Origin: Muribaculaceae bacterium
GTDB lineage: Bacteria; Bacteroidota; Bacteroidia; Bacteroidales; Muribaculaceae
Reading direction: 5' to 3'
Length of the DNA stretch: 64,000 nucleotides
Assembly: GCA_017935045.1 (NCBI GenBank)
Contig: JAGBIJ010000045.1
Coordinates: forward strand, 1-64,000
The position numbers were made by a program, and so were the translations under genes. How positions within the stretch are numbered: position 1 is the first letter of the stretch; each line of letters opens with the position of its first letter. Shown one piece after another: positions 24,034 to 32,457 of this stretch. The notes beneath the pieces are model-generated. The model was not told the DNA's origin. It saw only the letters and a list, made by a program, of their open reading frames with translations, and ran no database searches.

Positions 24034-24041
24034 TAACTTTG
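24034..24041 (+). promoter_or_regulatory. -7 box of the cobalamin riboswitch transcript
   Basis: TAACTTTG fits TAnnTTTG and ends 10 nt before the first base-paired part of the aptamer. No clear -33 TTG was seen. Confidence 0.6.
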
Positions 24042-24051
24042 CAAGCGTATT

Positions 24052-24261
24052 CAGGTAAGCGCCCTTCGGGACGCTTGCGGCGGACCTGAGGGGAGAGACC
24101 CGAGGGGACGCTAATAGGGAAAGCTGTGAAAATCAGCTGCAGTACCCGCTGCTGTAAGTAAGTCGCGCTTCAGGCGCGAGCCGGAAATGTCACTGGGACG
24201 CAACTCCCGGGAAGACCCGGCCGACACCACGATGGTGTCGCTACAAGCCAGAAGACCTGCC
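24052..24261 (+). promoter_or_regulatory. Cobalamin (B12) riboswitch aptamer
   Basis: The B12 box is explicit: GCCAGAAGACCTGCC at 24247-24261. Upstream lie the other conserved blocks in order: AATAGGGAA (about 24113), a GTGAAAAT block within the J6/3-type core, CCGCTGCTGTAAGT (about 24147) and GTCACTGGGA (about 24188). The closing helix is CAGGT (24052-24056) with ACCTG (24255-24259). A nested hairpin follows (24265-24271 with 24291-24297, and 24271-24275 with 24281-24285), then AGCCTT/AAGGCT (24302-24321). These may form the expression platform. The next large gene starts at 24478. Confidence 0.93.
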
Positions 24262-24323
24262 TGCATACCGCGCCGCTCGGCGGCGCATAAGCGGTATCTT
24301 AAGCCTTCGGGAGTTAAGGCTCG

Positions 24324-24446
24324 GTGCGTCTCTTGTTTATTGACACATTCCATCTTTCGTTTCCCCTCCTGATTGGGGAGATACTGCTTTGTGCGCTGTC
24401 TGCCGCGGCATCTGCCCTGGTAGTGACGGGCTATATACGTGTGTGA
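24324..24446 (+). CDS. Candidate small hydrophobic leader protein
   Basis: A 40-codon frame (GTG start, TGA stop) lies between the riboswitch and the giant gene. It would encode a single membrane helix: LLIGEILLCALSAAASALVV preceded by a short start region. The gene begins just 3' of the last platform hairpin (24302-24321), where a start codon controlled by the riboswitch would be expected. It may be a true small membrane protein, a regulatory leader peptide or a gene remnant; a chance frame is possible. It was too short for ordinary gene calling. Confidence 0.35.
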   Translation: MRLLFIDTFHLSFPLLIGEILLCALSAAASALVVTGYIRV

Positions 24447-24477
24447 ACAACTTATTATCTAACAAAAACTTATCTAT

Positions 24478-27400
24478 ATGTACAGAATTTTTCGCTATCT
24501 GACGGTTTTGGTTCTATGCGCCGTCTCGGCGTTGCCGGCCTTGGCTGCAACCGAGGTCTACGACATGCCGAGGAAAGACGGGCAGCATCCGGTCAAGACC
24601 GTAGAAGGAGAACTCCTGTTTTATGATATGGGAGGTTCTTCAGGGTCTACACCCGGCTATTTTGCCGGCTACACCCGGTTTGTGCCTGCCGATGAGTCTG
24701 GACAGGTGCAGATTTCCTTCAACACTCTCGACCTGACCGGGAGCGCCGCTGTCTATATTTATGACGGCGATATAAACTTTACAGGCTACTATTCCGACAT
24801 TCCTGAAGGCTATCTGGCCAAGCTGACAGGCTCCGAAGCGGGCGGCACATTTGTCTCAACCACCGGCTCGCTCTCTGTATTGTATCACTGCAAGGGCACC
24901 GGAGGCGGCGCCGGATGGGAAGCTCTGGTAACCGAGGTGCCGAGCAAGCAGCAGGAATGGAAAGAGGTGTCAGCGGTCCGCACAGGTCTTCCGGTGGCAT
25001 ATCCCGGGAAACAGGGGCAGCCGCTGATTAAGGTAAACGCCCTTACCGACGGCGGCGCCGAGCCGCTCTCTGTCAGCGAACTTGCCTTTACATTGGGCGG
25101 TACGCTGCCTCTGGACAAGCTGTCGAATCTCAGAGTGGTCTACAGCAAGTCGAGCGACGCCCCCGAGGGAGACGCTTTCGGAGTGACAGCTGCCGGCGCG
25201 TCCGCGCTCACGTTCAGTGGCGATGTGCCCCTGAAGCATGGCGACAATTACTTCTGGCTGCTGGCCGACATAGCCGACGACGCTGCCGCCGGACAGACCG
25301 TAGAGGCTACACTGACCGGCCTTACCGCCGGCTCGACACAGCGCGTAGCCTCTCCCGTCGCTCCGGAGGGAAGCGTGACTTTGGCCAATATGGTGCTTCT
25401 CTCATCTACACCAAAGACATGGAAAGTAGGCGACATGCCTATAGATTTTTACGATGACGGCGGTATCGGCGGCAAGATAAGCGCTGACTTTACGGGTCAG
25501 GCCACATTCGTACCCACGACGCCTGGCAGGAAAGTCAGAATCCGCTTTACGAAGCTCGCTCTGTTCAATACCTCGTCCACAGGCAAGAATGACGTACTCA
25601 AGGTCTACAACGGCACCGCTGCCGACGACGCGCAGCTGCTTGCCACCGTCCTGAAAGACCTGATTACAGTTCATTCCACCGCCGCCGACGGCTCGCTTAC
25701 CGTCTCTCTGACAAGCACCACCGGCGTGCCTGCCGACGGATTCGAAGCTGTGGTGGAAGAGTTCACGCCCCAGCCCATGGAGATAGAGTCCATAGCCGCC
25801 TCGCGTCCCGACACAGGCAATGCCGCAGCAGGCGAGGAGGATGTGAGAATACTGCTCTTTAACGTCAGGACCCGCAATACGGAGCCGGCTCTGACACTCG
25901 ACAGCTTTGATTTCGCATCGGCTTCCACAGCTCCGGTAAGCGCGGCCCGCCTCTACTTCCTCGGGGCTGACGCCACGTCTGCCGGCACGCTTGTAGGCTC
26001 GGCGCCGGCGCCGGGAGCCACATTCTCCATTGCCGCCGACAGTCCCGTGACCCTGGCTGAGCGCGACAACTGGTTCCTGCTATGCTATAATGTGGGACGC
26101 GACGCCGTCAACGACCAGACCCTGACAGCCGCTCTTACAGCAGTGGTGTCCGGAGCAATCAAGACCGCTGCCACGGAAGGCAACCCCGCCGGAGAGCGCA
26201 AGATTGAGAACGTATATTACTCACGCACAAAGCACGCCACGTATACCGTCAACGGCACATGGCAGTTCAAGACCACACCTTCGCAATACAGCTATTACGG
26301 CTATGACAACACCGAGGGCGAACAGATTACCACGTTCCTTCCTGCCACCGATGGGATGACCATGGAGATAGATTTCTCCAAGTTCAACCTTGCGAGCAGC
26401 AACTACGGCACCCCGGCGGTCCTCAAGATAATAGACGGAGAAAGCGCCGACGGCACTGTACTCTGGGAAATGACATACAGCACCCGCAGTGAGGGTCCCG
26501 GCCGCGCGTTGCGTGCCGGCAATGCAGCCGGAGCCCTTACCGTGGTGTTTAACTCCAACGGCAATCGCGGAGGCTCGGGCCAGGGCTTCGCAGCCACTGT
26601 CCGCGAATACCGCTCCCACCCCATGGAGGTAACAGCTGTCGAGGCTGTACAGACCAACACGGACAATATCCGGCCCGCTGCGACGGACCAGGAGATAATC
26701 AGCGTCAAGGTCACGGCCGACGGCGACCAGAATCCTGTCTCGGTAACTGAGCTTGATATCGATATGAAAGGCTGTCAGGATATAGTCAAGACAGTGAAAA
26801 TCTACAGCACGGGCAAAGACCAGACGTTCGCCACCGGCGCTCTCGTAGCCGAGAAGGCTGTGGACCCGCAGTCTGCCGTACAGAAGATAACACTGGCCAA
26901 TCCGCTCGCGCTCAATGAGAAAGACAACTGGCTGCATGTAGCCTACGATATGGCCGAGACCCTGCCGTCCGACCGCAAGGTAGACGCATCTGTGGCTGGT
27001 CTGACCGCCGGAGGCAAGAACGTAGCCGTCACTGCCGCCGATCCCGATGGAGAGCGCATGACCAAGAATATATATTATTTCGAGGGTGGCGGCAAGACCG
27101 TGACCGTAGACGGCTCCATGCTGTTCTACGACAACATGGGCCCCGACGCCAAGTACACCACGGACGCCCAAGGCTCTGTGACATTCATGCCGACAGAAGG
27201 CAAGATAATCCGCTTTATCTTCAAAAACTTCTATACCAACATCCGCGACTACTTCTACATCTACGACGGAACGGACACCCAGGCCACGCCGCTTCAGAAG
27301 CTCTCCGGCTCGAAGAGCGACCTGGCTCCGGTCATCTCTACAGCCGACAACGGCGCGCTTACCGTAGTATTCGAACCTACAAAGCCCTACAACGACGGCT

Positions 27401-30400
27401 GGGAGATAGAGGTGCAGGCTTTTGAACCGCAGCCCCTCGCTGTCAAGCAGGTCAGCACAGAGCCGGTCAACGACATAAAGATGCTGCGCGGTTCCGAGAA
27501 CAACAAGATGCTCAAAGTGGCCGTGGAGATAGCCGGCGACAAGGGTCTTGTCGACCTGACATCTTTCGACTTTTCCGCCTTGGCCACAGATATGGCCACA
27601 CTGCGCGCCGCACGCCTGTGGTACACCGGCGAGAGCGACGTATTCGGCACATATTCGCAATATGGCGAGACTCTGTATGCCGACCCGCTGGCCTTTAGCG
27701 GCTCACAGCAGTACCGTCAGGCCGGAACATATTATTATTGGTTGACTTACGATGTGACGCCCGCCGCCTCGCTGGACGCGCAGATGCAGGCTCGGCTGGC
27801 TTCGCTGACCGCCAACGGCGCGACTGTGACTCCGGCTGAGGAGCGCGATGCCCTGGTCACAGTACAGGAGGGCATGCACGGCACATTTACCGTAGGTACG
27901 TCCGGCCAGGAAGATTACCTCTCCGTGAGCGCCGCTATCGAAGCCATGAAGGGCGGCATCGACGGCCCTGTGGAGCTGCTGCTCTCTGACGGCAATTACA
28001 AGGAGCTGGTCAAGGTGCCTGCCATAAGCGGCTCTTCGGCCATGAATACCATCACCATGCGTTCGGCTTCGGGCAAGCGCGAGAATACGGTCATCACTTA
28101 CGATGTCTACACCGATCCCGGCAGCTCGCATTATGCCGACCGCTACGGCGTCTTCACTCTCGACGGAGTAAGCCACTTCACTCTGCGCGATGTGACTGTG
28201 GCCACTGAGGCCCTGAATTTCCCCGGCGTCGTATATGTGCGCAACCAGTCGCGCGACAACACTGTGGAAAATTGCGTCATCCGCTCCCCCCGCTCCAATG
28301 ACCAGGGCAAGGGCACAAGCAATGTCTACATGTATGCCAAGAATGAAGCCAACTGCAATTCCGACCGATTCACTCTGAAAGACTGCCTGGTGGACGGCGG
28401 CCTGATAGGCGTGAACATGGGAGGCACCGGCTACGTGGCTCTCCCGCAGGAACGCGGCGGCCATATTACCGGCAATACATTTGTCAATCAAGGCAGCAAG
28501 GGCATCTATGTCCACAATGAAGACGATGTCATAATAGAGGGCAACACCGTGTCCAGCGACGGCGAAGGCACCACCAGCTCGTTCTGGGGCATTGACGTAA
28601 GCCTGGGCCACGGACCCACTGTCATCAGTGACAACGTGGTGCGCATGACCGGCCCCGTATCTTCGGCCCACGGCATGTATGTGCGTGCCAACGACTCCAA
28701 CTGGCTCAAGGAGCAGACACACCGTATATACAATAATGAGATAAATATCTCCGGTATCAGCTCCGCCGTGACCGGTCTGCGCGTGAACAACGACCTGCCC
28801 GGTGTGGAAATTACCCACAATACCTTCCGTCTGCGCGGCGACAACGCCAATTCCAACGGCATATACTTCAGCGGTACGATGGCCGAAGGACTGTTTGCCA
28901 ACAATATAGTGCAGAACGAGGCGGGCGGCACAGTCTACGGAGTGAACCGCGAGGCTTATCTTGCCGAGCTGCCGATGCGCGGCAATGTAGTCTGGACTTC
29001 GGGCGATGTATTCGCTTACGTAAGCCAGAACCGCACGTTCGACGAGTGGAAGGCTGTAGCCACCCTCGACACTGACCCGGCGCTGGAGCAGACGCAGTTC
29101 CTTTCCGATGAAATTCTGGAGCCGGCTGAGAAAGGCTCGCTGTGCAACGGCAACCCTGTGGACTACGTGACAACAGACCTCAACGGCAGCGCGCGCGACA
29201 AAGAGCATCCCTCTGCCGGAGCCTACGAGTACGGCGAGTCGACAGGCGCTCCGGCTATGGCCGAAGGCATGCCCGCCTTCCGCGACATCACTCACGAGAG
29301 CGCCATCATGCAGGTAGCCTCTACCATGACCGGCACACTCAATTATTTCGTGACCGACAGCGACGCCGAAGCTCCCTCGGCAGAGGAGATAACCGGCGAA
29401 GATCTGAAACTGGAGCTCCGCAAAGGCCGCACAGCCGAAGTCAAGCTGACAGGACTCAAGCCCAACAAGACATATAGGGTCTACAGCGTGCTGACCAGTC
29501 TGCGCGGCGTGCAGTCGGACGTACTCACATCCGAACCTTTCACTACCACATATACTCCGACCGCCGTCGCCACGTTCGAAGACGCCGGTATCGTGAACAA
29601 TGTGATCTACGACGGCACATTCAGCTTCACAGGCTTCACGCTCGAAGACATCACTGACGGCGTAGGCGAAGCCCCGAACGCCAAGGCCGCCCTGATGGAA
29701 GATGGCTATGGAGTTGTCAGGCTGACCAATTCCGATGACCTGAGCCTCGACGGATTCTTCATCAAGAATGAAGCCGAAGTTACTCTGACAACCCGCGACG
29801 CGTCGCTGCGCGAGCAGAAGACCAAGACAGTGGCCGCCAGCCCTGCCTGGACTTATGTCAACCTGCGCGACCTGGGTCCCATGACTTATCTCGACTTCGA
29901 GAGCGACGGCAATGTAAGCATCGACAATTTCGCCGGCCAGCCGCTGACGCTTGAGGTGACTGTGGACTTCGACGAGACCGTACGCCTGACCGAAGGCGCG
30001 GAGACAAGCGTGCCGGCAAGCATAAGTGGCGGTGTGGGTCCGTATGCCATAGAATGGCGCGACGCCTCCGGCGCGACTGTAGGTACGACCGGCGCCCTCT
30101 CGCTGAAACCCGCACACAGCGCGGCATACACTGTCAGCGTGAGCGACGCCTGGGACAGCAAGGCTTCCGCCGCGTTCAAGGTCTATGTGGAGGGCGCTCA
30201 GTACGCCGCCACTTTCGACGACCTGCAGCTTGAGCCGGAGTCCAACTGGCACGGCGACACCGAGGACGAGGACTACATGAGCGGCTCGTTCTTCAGCGGC
30301 TCGTTTGAGTTCAACAACCTCTACATGGCCGATTGGGACTCGTGGGCTTTCTTCGGTTATTCCAATTCGACATCGACTTCATTCTCCGACTATTATACTG

Positions 30401-31383
30401 ACCAGTATAATTCGGCTGTCGGCCATGGCCACGGAGACTCGGCCAACTACGGTGTGCTTTACGCTTCCGACTTCATGGGACAGAGCGAGGCTACTGTGAC
30501 CAATTCCGCAGCAGGCCAGACTGTAGAGGGCTGTTGGTTTACCAACTCGGCCTGGGTCGTAAGCGCCATACTCAACGGCGACGGCATGAGCGAGGCCTTC
30601 GGCAAGGACGACAATCTTATACTCCATATTACGGGCCTTGACTCCAAGGGCGAGACTACCGGCGCTGTCGATTTCCCGCTGGCCGACTACAGTGCCGACG
30701 ACGAAAAGGACCGCTGGTACCTCGACAGCTGGCAGTGGTGCGACCTGAAGCCTCTGGGCGCAGTATGCAAGCTGAGATTCAACATTACCGGCAGCAAGAG
30801 CAGCAGCTACGGCCTTACTACTCCCGCGTATGTGTGTCTCGACGACCTGGGCACAGGACGAGAGGTAGCCGAAGCCGAAACGGTAACATTGCTGACCAAC
30901 GCGGAGACTCCCTCCGACAGCTTCGCCCTGGAGCCCTATTTCAGCTTCAAGGCAGACGAGGGCACCGTAAGCTACGTCATAGAGTGTGAGGACAGCCGTG
31001 TAAGCCTGAACGACGGCACAGTCACTGTAGAGGCTCCCTCCGGAGAGCAGATGAGTCTTGTGGCCCACGCCACGCAGCGCGGCAAACATGAATATGTGCG
31101 TATACCTGTCAAGGTTGACGCCCGTCCGCTTGGAGTGGAGACCGTAGAGACGGTAAAATCCGTTGTATACCCGAATCCTGCCCGCGATTATGTCCGCGTA
31201 AGCAGCGAGGCGACAGACTATACCGTGACTCTTATAAGCATGGATGGCCGCGCGCTGATAAGCATGAGCGGATGCAGCGGTACGGTCACCATGGATCTGA
31301 ACGGCGTCAGCGCCGGCAACTATCTTGTGAAAGTGACATCGGCCGACGGCCGAGCCAAAGTTCACAAGCTCCTTGTAAAGTAA
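24478..31383 (+). CDS. Giant modular surface protein under B12 control
   Basis: A 2301-residue secreted protein with a signal peptide (1-23, ending ALPALA). The N-terminal half has four two-domain units, each a CUB-like jelly roll (starting near 49, 324, 589 and 868, with YIYDG-type motifs) plus a module resembling the BNR-associated N-terminal domain of Bacteroidales sialidases. Next come a right-handed beta-helix (about 1150-1505, many N-x-V/I-x-N turns), an Fn3-like domain (1596-1693), a jelly-roll-like domain (1698-1821), a PKD-like domain (1825-1905), a DUF4465-type domain (about 1911-2130) and a Por/T9SS-like sorting domain (PNPARDY near 2230, ending VHKLLVK). Surface cobamide-binding BtuH-type proteins have, as far as I recall, DUF4465 folds. 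With the riboswitch upstream, cobamide capture or adhesion is the leading hypothesis. No TonB transporter is adjacent. Confidence 0.85.
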   Translation: MYRIFRYLTVLVLCAVSALPALAATEVYDMPRKDGQHPVKTVEGELLFYDMGGSSGSTPGYFAGYTRFVPADESGQVQISFNTLDLTGSAAVYIYDGDINFTGYYSDIPEGYLAKLTGSEAGGTFVSTTGSLSVLYHCKGTGGGAGWEALVTEVPSKQQEWKEVSAVRTGLPVAYPGKQGQPLIKVNALTDGGAEPLSVSELAFTLGGTLPLDKLSNLRVVYSKSSDAPEGDAFGVTAAGASALTFSGDVPLKHGDNYFWLLADIADDAAAGQTVEATLTGLTAGSTQRVASPVAPEGSVTLANMVLLSSTPKTWKVGDMPIDFYDDGGIGGKISADFTGQATFVPTTPGRKVRIRFTKLALFNTSSTGKNDVLKVYNGTAADDAQLLATVLKDLITVHSTAADGSLTVSLTSTTGVPADGFEAVVEEFTPQPMEIESIAASRPDTGNAAAGEEDVRILLFNVRTRNTEPALTLDSFDFASASTAPVSAARLYFLGADATSAGTLVGSAPAPGATFSIAADSPVTLAERDNWFLLCYNVGRDAVNDQTLTAALTAVVSGAIKTAATEGNPAGERKIENVYYSRTKHATYTVNGTWQFKTTPSQYSYYGYDNTEGEQITTFLPATDGMTMEIDFSKFNLASSNYGTPAVLKIIDGESADGTVLWEMTYSTRSEGPGRALRAGNAAGALTVVFNSNGNRGGSGQGFAATVREYRSHPMEVTAVEAVQTNTDNIRPAATDQEIISVKVTADGDQNPVSVTELDIDMKGCQDIVKTVKIYSTGKDQTFATGALVAEKAVDPQSAVQKITLANPLALNEKDNWLHVAYDMAETLPSDRKVDASVAGLTAGGKNVAVTAADPDGERMTKNIYYFEGGGKTVTVDGSMLFYDNMGPDAKYTTDAQGSVTFMPTEGKIIRFIFKNFYTNIRDYFYIYDGTDTQATPLQKLSGSKSDLAPVISTADNGALTVVFEPTKPYNDGWEIEVQAFEPQPLAVKQVSTEPVNDIKMLRGSENNKMLKVAVEIAGDKGLVDLTSFDFSALATDMATLRAARLWYTGESDVFGTYSQYGETLYADPLAFSGSQQYRQAGTYYYWLTYDVTPAASLDAQMQARLASLTANGATVTPAEERDALVTVQEGMHGTFTVGTSGQEDYLSVSAAIEAMKGGIDGPVELLLSDGNYKELVKVPAISGSSAMNTITMRSASGKRENTVITYDVYTDPGSSHYADRYGVFTLDGVSHFTLRDVTVATEALNFPGVVYVRNQSRDNTVENCVIRSPRSNDQGKGTSNVYMYAKNEANCNSDRFTLKDCLVDGGLIGVNMGGTGYVALPQERGGHITGNTFVNQGSKGIYVHNEDDVIIEGNTVSSDGEGTTSSFWGIDVSLGHGPTVISDNVVRMTGPVSSAHGMYVRANDSNWLKEQTHRIYNNEINISGISSAVTGLRVNNDLPGVEITHNTFRLRGDNANSNGIYFSGTMAEGLFANNIVQNEAGGTVYGVNREAYLAELPMRGNVVWTSGDVFAYVSQNRTFDEWKAVATLDTDPALEQTQFLSDEILEPAEKGSLCNGNPVDYVTTDLNGSARDKEHPSAGAYEYGESTGAPAMAEGMPAFRDITHESAIMQVASTMTGTLNYFVTDSDAEAPSAEEITGEDLKLELRKGRTAEVKLTGLKPNKTYRVYSVLTSLRGVQSDVLTSEPFTTTYTPTAVATFEDAGIVNNVIYDGTFSFTGFTLEDITDGVGEAPNAKAALMEDGYGVVRLTNSDDLSLDGFFIKNEAEVTLTTRDASLREQKTKTVAASPAWTYVNLRDLGPMTYLDFESDGNVSIDNFAGQPLTLEVTVDFDETVRLTEGAETSVPASISGGVGPYAIEWRDASGATVGTTGALSLKPAHSAAYTVSVSDAWDSKASAAFKVYVEGAQYAATFDDLQLEPESNWHGDTEDEDYMSGSFFSGSFEFNNLYMADWDSWAFFGYSNSTSTSFSDYYTDQYNSAVGHGHGDSANYGVLYASDFMGQSEATVTNSAAGQTVEGCWFTNSAWVVSAILNGDGMSEAFGKDDNLILHITGLDSKGETTGAVDFPLADYSADDEKDRWYLDSWQWCDLKPLGAVCKLRFNITGSKSSSYGLTTPAYVCLDDLGTGREVAEAETVTLLTNAETPSDSFALEPYFSFKADEGTVSYVIECEDSRVSLNDGTVTVEAPSGEQMSLVAHATQRGKHEYVRIPVKVDARPLGVETVETVKSVVYPNPARDYVRVSSEATDYTVTLISMDGRALISMSGCSGTVTMDLNGVSAGNYLVKVTSADGRAKVHKLLVK

Positions 31384-31412
31384 TCGTTTTTCTAATTTTT
31401 ATTCTTTGCCAG

Positions 31413-31446
31413 AAGGGGGCGCGATGTGCCGATCGCGCCCCCTTTT
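31413..31446 (+). terminator. Terminator of the giant gene
   Basis: Perfect 13-bp GC-rich stem (31413-31425 with 31432-31444), 6-nt loop and a T-tract (31443-31446). Confidence 0.9.
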
Positions 31447-31574
31447 ATCATGCAGACCGTAATCCGGCTATGGAAATACGCTACAAGTGCAGCATAGTCT
31501 TTGGACTGTCGTTTCCTCACACGTGGAAAGGGTAATTTCGGACAATTTTTCGGCCAAAAAGAGCAACGGAATGA

Positions 31575-31605
31575 TTGCAGTTTCGCGGGGTATTTAGTAA
31601 TTTTG
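31575..31605 (+). promoter_or_regulatory. Promoter of the phospholipase A gene
   Basis: TTG at 31575-31577, 20-bp spacer, TAATTTTG at 31598-31605. The ATG at 31615 follows after 9 nt, giving at most a few leader bases. Confidence 0.75.
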
Positions 31606-31614
31606 CAGCCTGAA

Positions 31615-32457
31615 ATGAGAATGATACGAGTCATATTGAGCATATTGTGTGTCATGGCGCTCCCCGTTGCCGTGTCCGGCCAGATAATCAAAGTAGAGCG
31701 TGAGAAAAGTTTTACGGATTCACTGCGTGAGGAATTTGACCGTGGCCCGTATTTCGGTCTGTACAGAGACAATTATTTCATTGTCGGCACAGATCCCACG
31801 CATAAGCCTACCGCCAATAATTCTGACATAAAGTTTCAGGTCTCAATAGCCCAGAAGCTCACGAAATCCACACTGCCGGGCAAGACATATCTGTTTCTGA
31901 CCTATACGCAGAATGTAGCCTGGGACGTATTCAAGCGTTCTATGCCGATGCACGATTTTACATTCAATCCCGGCCTGGGTCTGGTCAAGCCCCTGTTCTC
32001 ACGCGACCGGTTCATAGGCAAGGCCACGCTGCTGATAGAACACATGAGCAACGGACGCGACTCGATTCAGAGCCGCTCGTGGAACCGTATATCACTGGGC
32101 GCGTCGATATTGATAGATGAATTCGTATGTATCGACGGTAAATTCTGGATTCCTATAGTCGATGGAGAAAACAACCGGGATATCCTGGATTATGTCGGTC
32201 TGTTTCAGGGCGGTGTCAGTGTGATGAGCCACAACAGAAAGTTTGGCGGCTCGCTTCATTTCGTGAAGCGGCGCGGCTGGAACCTGAGCTGCAACACGAT
32301 TCTGGAGCTGTATTGGCGTCCCTGGGAGCGCGCCAACCAATATTTCTTTCTGCAGTGGTATAACGGATATGGGGAAAATCTGCTGGATTACAACAAATTT
32401 CACAATCGTCTGAGGCTGGGTATCGTAATCAAGCCGCGTTTCTTCTCAGAGTTCTGA
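31615..32457 (+). CDS. pldA: Outer-membrane phospholipase A
   Basis: Integral outer-membrane beta-barrel that hydrolyses phospholipids mislocalised to the outer leaflet. The 280-residue protein has a signal peptide (ending AVSGQ). The OMPLA catalytic signature is intact: His143 and Ser145 in EHMSNGR and Asn157 in SRSWNR, spaced as in the E. coli enzyme. The later strand QWYNGYGENLLDYN also matches OMPLA. I use the ATG at 31615 (an ATG at 31621 is equally possible) because a complete promoter ends at 31605, so the longer frame from 31501 is not plausible. It stands alone, convergent to the aro/cytochrome operon. Confidence 0.92.
   Translation: MRMIRVILSILCVMALPVAVSGQIIKVEREKSFTDSLREEFDRGPYFGLYRDNYFIVGTDPTHKPTANNSDIKFQVSIAQKLTKSTLPGKTYLFLTYTQNVAWDVFKRSMPMHDFTFNPGLGLVKPLFSRDRFIGKATLLIEHMSNGRDSIQSRSWNRISLGASILIDEFVCIDGKFWIPIVDGENNRDILDYVGLFQGGVSVMSHNRKFGGSLHFVKRRGWNLSCNTILELYWRPWERANQYFFLQWYNGYGENLLDYNKFHNRLRLGIVIKPRFFSEF

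Follow-up and report, generated by a model that had tools for sequence, protein, structure and literature searches.

The closest described relatives of the system considered here are BtuJ1 and BtuJ2 of Bacteroides thetaiotaomicron, B12-binding DUF4465 proteins of solved structure (9fct and 9i2l; PMC12751083) which are small lipoproteins (PDB chains of 256 and 305 residues) in riboswitch-controlled B12 uptake operons. Eight divergent members of the DUF4465 family have been described as binding B12 (PMC13398666), reporters of the B. thetaiotaomicron riboswitch operons undergo near-complete repression by B12, and 229 of 824 family sequences carry the type IX secretion system (T9SS) signature IPR026444 (both PMC12751083). 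Here we describe a stretch of 64,000 nucleotides from a Muribaculaceae bacterium (assembly GCA_017935045.1, contig JAGBIJ010000045.1, positions 1 to 64,000; the window hereafter) in which a cobalamin riboswitch stands before one gene for a 2301-residue DUF4465 protein with a T9SS tail, which we refer to as the giant.

With BtuJ1 and BtuJ2 the giant shares the DUF4465 domain, the TP-x-Y motif of the HI loop and cobalamin riboswitch control; it differs from them in its length, its T9SS tail, its CUB/BNR units and beta-helix, in being alone on its riboswitch, and in having Trp in place of Y146. With the T9SS-tailed members of the family, known from counts only (PMC12751083), it has in common a DUF4465 domain together with a C-terminal extracellular sorting signal. 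BtuH2 (7biz) is also a surface B12-binding accessory protein with added domains (Ig-like) and a riboswitch-associated locus, but its B12-binding domain differs from DUF4465 (PMC8941943) and does not match the giant. The BtuG-BtuH fusion BtuG1 (8blw) is a multi-domain cobamide-binding surface protein, as the giant is predicted to be, but it consists of a propeller joined to a BtuH domain and is in complex with BtuB1 (PMC10404256), and neither of its domains was matched in the giant. Hand-over of cobamide to BtuG/BtuB has been proposed for BtuH (PMC10404256). Compared with the Bacteroides-type btuB-btuG-btuH locus, the window giant lacks transporter genes in its unit, whereas some relatives have them, and the pairing is unlike that in a flavobacterium, where a cobalamin riboswitch precedes a TonB transporter (PMC9723704).

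Results

The aptamer of the window is full length and lies at 24058-24278 on the forward strand, as do all features of the locus given below. The Rfam covariance scan matched RF00174 over model positions 1-189 of 189 with 83.5 bits (E 4.3e-19; gathering score 31.5 bits), the sole Rfam match at gathering score in the window, with the B12 box at 24247-24261, where the first-pass annotation of this DNA, made from its letters, had placed it. The same annotation had read a single giant gene, and one open reading frame does run from 24478 to 31383, 200 nucleotides downstream of the riboswitch in the same direction and separated from it by a leader at 24279-24477. Upstream, the box TAACTTTG at 24034-24041 fits TAnnTTTG, which we take to be the Bacteroidetes -7 promoter consensus and which is our basis for calling it a promoter box. 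Such a box is found at the first base of the aptamer, or within 30 nucleotides upstream of it, in 15 of the 17 giant loci examined (it is missing at L099 and L095). The gene is followed at 31411-31446 by a terminator-like hairpin (-29.6 kcal/mol, z -6.1), which is absent from the output of the consensus terminator scan. Promoter box, full aptamer, one reading frame and terminator-like hairpin together make a single-gene transcription unit likely, and the locus looks like one. Because the genome holds only three RF00174 matches in 2.22 Mb, and because each giant that could be assessed in the relatives searched shows the pairing, a chance pairing of riboswitch and giant is very unlikely.

Those relatives came from two sets. 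In a collection of named GTDB genomes 64 loci were matched, 38 of them with a giant-type frame of at least 1170 residues (the other 26 were unused in the counts); two are cut at the contig start, leaving 36 assessable. All 36 stand behind a cobalamin riboswitch, 23 directly, eight after btuH and five after btuB-btuG-btuH, the arrangement of L140 having been checked by tblastn and the riboswitch match being cut at the locus edge in L118 and L140. A tree of 32 giants needs four changes to place the three arrangements. The set includes near-copies (L123-L125, L127/L139 and L110/L113); its carriers are labelled Muribaculaceae, Prevotellaceae and Paludibacteraceae, the giants are mostly about 1860-2360 residues long, and the one closest to the window giant among the named relatives is that of another Muribaculaceae bacterium (L104), with 48% over the whole length. 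The second set was 149 genomes of the same family, sampled from a larger group, with PF14717 in 96 and RF00174 in at least 145. Giants, defined here by a DUF4465 frame above 2000 residues, occur in 18 of these genomes, the window's included, and in four of the nine from its genus; five genomes of the genus have riboswitches and no DUF4465. A riboswitch leads all 18 giants, 17 from directly upstream and one, in G109, through an operon of riboswitch-btuB-btuG-btuH-giant in which the giant is the fourth gene. Among other DUF4465 loci of the family set, frames of 985 (L101) and 323 residues (L103) also have a riboswitch. The two sets overlap in L105, L115, L134 and L141, and since our riboswitch model R1 was built from 16 family-set aptamers (those of the window, 14 other giants and L103, leaving out L095 and L096), these loci match it by construction.

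The DUF4465 domain (PF14717, IPR027828) occupies residues 1952-2124 (30331-30849), with 179.8 bits in Pfam against a cut-off of 25. Searched against PDB sequences, the window giant matched the DUF4465 chains 9hmu (E 1.1e-22) and 4jqr (E 7.7e-17), and a profile of 18 giants matched six distinct solved DUF4465-type chains, the others being 9fct, 9i2l, 9qpm and 4e9k. DUF4465 proteins have an augmented beta-jellyroll fold, for which the domain of the giant is a candidate on these sequence matches. Cobamide binding, which the first-pass annotation had put forward as the likely function, is thereby favoured in so far as the domain is that of a published B12-binding family. The same annotation had given DUF4465 as the fold of BtuH-type proteins, and this was mistaken: DUF4465 is the BtuJ family (PMC12751083, PMC13398666), and BtuH2 has another domain (PMC8941943). 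Membership of the giant in BtuH was rejected, as the PDB sequence search gave no match at E <= 1 to the BtuH structures (7biz and the H domain of 8blw), to which a different protein of the same genome, encoded on contig C4, does match.

In alignments the HI-loop Tyr of BtuJ1 (Y245, in an NTPxY-type motif) corresponds to Y2118 (codon 30829-30831) in T2115-P2116-A2117-Y2118, with Thr replacing Asn (TTPAY). It is kept in 35 of 36 rows of the named-genome alignment (the window and 35 relatives, three near-copies having been dropped) and in 16 of the 18 family-set giants. The position of the DE-loop Tyr of BtuJ1 (Y146) is that of W2026 (codon 30553-30555) and is either Trp or Tyr in 34 of the 36 rows and in 16 of the 18 giants. 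Conservation of the DUF4465 region is among the better in the giant. An extra domain at residues 1680-1820 (29515-29937) aligns with the C-terminal half of DUF4465 at an hhalign probability of 94.8 (Pfam DUF4465 at E 0.09 only) and is present in 7 of the 36 aligned giants; a second B12 site there was considered and rejected, the insert being without the HI-loop Tyr despite this likeness.

The remainder of the protein begins with a putative signal peptide (residues about 1-24, 24478-24549), called by eye on the translation, with no lipobox by eye. Four tandem units, each CUB-like plus BNR_assoc_N-type, follow at residues about 27-1140 (24556-27897) and were recovered by internal alignment of the window giant. 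Pfam on the whole protein found BNR_assoc_N in three stretches and also matched CUB. With the units scanned singly, BNR_assoc_N was above its cut-off of 25 bits in units 1 and 3, narrowly missed it at 24.1 bits in unit 4 and was unseen in unit 2, while CUB stayed below cut-off in units 1, 2 and 4 (E 0.095, 0.0028 and 0.042) and was unseen in unit 3. Of 30 aligned N-terminal regions of giants, 28 had a match to BNR_assoc_N and 14 one to CUB (E <= 0.01), and the number of units varies, with L110, L113, L119 and L122 being without unit 1. A beta-helix region at residues about 1141-1590 (27898-29247) matched PF13229 at 26.0 bits when scanned alone (cut-off 25.9) and at 17.1 bits, under the cut-off, within the whole protein. 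The T9SS type A sorting tail, with the stop codon, lies at 31165-31383: TIGR04183 in NCBIfam (cut-off 23) gave 40.7 bits for the whole protein and 44.5 for the C-terminal piece, and Por_Secre_tail in Pfam gave 37.3 bits at residues 2230-2299 against 27. The domain list of the first-pass annotation is therefore retained for the CUB/BNR units, the DUF4465 domain and the tail, is borderline for the beta-helix, and is withdrawn for Fn3 and PKD, neither of which had a significant model match in Pfam on the whole protein, NCBIfam or the single-piece scans. Its proposal of export by T9SS agrees with the tail and with the presence in the genome of the translocon protein SprA (2709 bits), the part of the system searched; export itself is a prediction.

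The genome carrying the window (G000) comprises 2.22 Mb in 62 contigs and is 89.9% complete. It has three cobalamin riboswitches over the cut-off, each before one gene: a BtuH homologue, a DUF5074 propeller protein and the window giant. The BtuH homologue (392 residues, contig C4, L006:7058-8236, reverse strand) matched 8blw at E 3.5e-72 and 7biz at E 6.1e-45, and the propeller protein (1214 residues, contig C12, L007:11309-14953, reverse strand) matched DUF5074 (PF16819) with 212 bits; btuB adjoins neither. DUF5074 is a propeller family listed beside DUF4465 genes (PMC13398666), and its model also matches the genome's own BtuG-like gene on contig C2 with 51.8 bits. That the 1214-residue protein is a BtuG was not accepted as proven: in the PDB it matched just the two chains of 9s6c, whose name is quinoprotein amine dehydrogenase-like, and no BtuG chain, and for this reason cobamide binding by it is a guess. 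Both proteins have T9SS-like ends by eye, and no T9SS tail model matched these ends at E <= 0.01.

The btuB-btuG pair lies apart from the giant on C2 (L022:10577-13827, forward strand), its BtuB matching BtuB1 (8blw_A) with 414 bits. No riboswitch was found for it by Rfam at E <= 1, and model R1 gave only a 16-nucleotide, chance-like match; a terminator-like hairpin near L022 10451-10520, before the pair, was seen through a sub-threshold small RNA match. A second DUF4465 gene, on contig C13, encodes a small protein that is lipoprotein-like by eye. Methylmalonyl-CoA mutase, a cobamide client, is present and the corrin-ring isomerase CbiC was not found in this genome; MetH was rejected as a client, its activation domain PF02965 being unmatched. 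The giant had been called stand-alone, which holds for its locus and not for its system, given btuB-btuG elsewhere in the genome and the relatives with the giant behind btuH or btuB-btuG-btuH.

A Pfam scan of ten neighbours and others identified, upstream of the giant, a glycoside hydrolase family 2 gene, a galactokinase-type gene, an aldose epimerase and an open reading frame without a Pfam match and, downstream, a phospholipase A1-type gene, a DAHP synthase and a cytochrome c assembly gene. As had been noted earlier of TonB transporters, none of the scanned neighbours is a B12 transport gene, and no transporter gene lies in the giant's transcription unit. The phospholipase A1-type gene (31501-32457, forward strand) comes after the terminator-like hairpin and is probably its own unit. 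An anti-phage relation was rejected, there being no PADLOC match at E <= 0.01.

Several relatives have further elements at the giant. In L111 (6248-18102) and L121 (2065-14893) one riboswitch is followed by btuH, a short giant (1176 and 1185 residues, respectively) and a second, very large giant-like protein (2331 and 2616). In L152 (11405-13382) and L167 (11463-13211) a second btuH and a small DUF4465 gene lie directly downstream of the giant, with a riboswitch of their own in L152. Four loci have another cobalamin riboswitch downstream of the giant, at L118:11126-11328, L113:11139-11342 and L119:11190-11397, at most 150 nucleotides from the giant, and at L110:12515-12720, about 1.5 kb away. 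A match to the FopS-family small RNA (RF04319) at L096:10748-10815 on the reverse strand adjoins the riboswitch of that giant.

Discussion

Based on the features identified in this study, the giant is probably the product of a single-gene, B12-repressed unit and a very large, T9SS-exported, extracellular cobamide-capture protein of the BtuJ type. Within this reading we infer the binding of B12, the regulation and the transfer to BtuB. Low cobamide would allow expression of the giant and B12 would repress it; the protein would be exported via Sec and then T9SS and be anchored at its C-terminal end, so that the DUF4465 pocket, near the anchor, could bind cobamide while the four CUB/BNR units and the beta-helix form a long arm or a matrix-binding part. 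The captured cobamide might then pass to BtuG and BtuB, whose genes lie elsewhere in the genome, and serve methylmalonyl-CoA mutase in a cell in which CbiC was not found.

A number of observations weigh against this reading. With regard to regulation, no clear expression platform is seen in the leader, a fold of 24244-24345 being no stronger than those of shuffles (z -0.14), and for this reason we claim neither transcriptional nor translational control; the DUF4465 gene on C13 has no riboswitch match, and a 471-residue DUF4465 frame in the family set (L102) has no adjoining riboswitch at gathering score. With regard to binding, the window giant has Trp in place of the DE-loop Tyr of BtuJ1, though 4jqr likewise has Trp in the alignment, and this Tyr is described as conserved among three structures, without being termed universal (PMC13398666). 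The HI-loop Tyr is Phe in L121, and the Y146 position is Val in L129 and L138. Two giants of the same family, both of genus g23 (L099 and L100), carry Leu in place of the HI-loop Tyr and Met/Leu in that of Y146 and have kept the riboswitch, and because of them B12 binding may not be universal among giants; a changed ligand or function is possible for these two. TIGR04183 is matched at E <= 0.01 in only 14 of 35 giant tails (the tail of L107 runs off its contig and was omitted). Giants are universal neither in the family nor in the genus (18/149 and 4/9), and the absences of genes from the window's genome are provisional, given its completeness and number of contigs.

A broader picture is possible, and we offer it tentatively. 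The B12-regulated uptake layer of this lineage might be extracellular, with riboswitches placed before single, dispersed, exported capture-type proteins (BtuH, the DUF5074 propeller and the giant BtuJ) and BtuB-BtuG left without a detectable riboswitch; the giant might then act as a "B12 boom", a multi-domain arm holding the cell to a surface or matrix while concentrating cobamide next to its own anchor, an arrangement undescribed for the lipoprotein systems. Riboswitch control, B12 binding by DUF4465 and T9SS-tailed DUF4465 proteins are each known singly. We found no earlier account in the open-licence papers searched of a giant family that joins riboswitch, DUF4465 and T9SS tail, nor of a genome divided between riboswitch-led exported proteins and a riboswitch-less transporter. 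A giant riboswitch-controlled DUF4465 protein has no earlier description among the matches listed from that literature, and its architecture and riboswitch pairing are seemingly undescribed in the main texts of both DUF4465 papers (PMC12751083, PMC13398666).

Alternatively, the giant might be released or vesicle-borne, a protein "cobalophore" collecting cobamide away from the cell, which we consider unlikely. T9SS substrates can be released as well as anchored, but the type A tail class is usually anchored to surface lipopolysaccharide, and the size of the giant and its helix/CUB arm would suit an anchored role. Its DUF4465 kin BtuJ1 and BtuJ2 show enrichment in the extracellular vesicles of B. 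thetaiotaomicron and act by way of these, but they are lipoproteins (PMC12751083), which may account for that location, whereas the giant has a T9SS type A tail.

The first-pass annotation had described the protein as a cobamide-binding or cobamide-dependent adhesin, and neither "adhesin" nor "cobamide-dependent" has received direct support. A related alternative, that the DUF4465 domain is vestigial or has a structural role and that the riboswitch reads B12 as a habitat signal for an adhesin or glycan-binding protein, appears improbable to us. Most of the 2301 residues do belong to other modules, the BNR_assoc_N-type parts match sialidase chains, and two relatives kept the riboswitch after losing the pocket residues; against this, nearly every giant retains the pocket residues, the DUF4465 region ranks with the better conserved parts, and in several lineages the giant lies in an operon with btuB, btuG and btuH. 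That the CUB array recognises the host cobalamin carriers intrinsic factor and haptocorrin, as human cubilin recognises such carriers, so that carrier-bound B12 would be taken, is hardly credible: CUB-type repeats do occur here in a riboswitch-controlled, DUF4465-bearing protein and their unit profile matches cubilin (3kq4_B) at E 3.8e-4, but CUB is a common fold and this match is weak, the calcium-site acidic triad, which we take to be a motif of ligand-binding CUB domains, is by eye not kept in the four units of the window giant, and the origin of many relatives in ruminants and horses neither supports nor excludes the idea.

An anchored, riboswitch-controlled capture protein of the BtuJ type thus remains the reading that we prefer, and the family is open to test since named strains carry a giant (Hoylesella marshii DSM 16973, Prevotella corporis DSM 18810, Prevotella pectinovora P4-76 and Marseilla massiliensis An819). 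B12 is contested in the gut, and the known Bacteroides model is one of small surface lipoproteins feeding BtuBG. If our reading is true, the giants would represent a second, possibly longer-range layer of B12 capture in Muribaculaceae, Prevotellaceae and Paludibacteraceae, and those with T9SS-type tails, which are many, would link the T9SS to vitamin nutrition.

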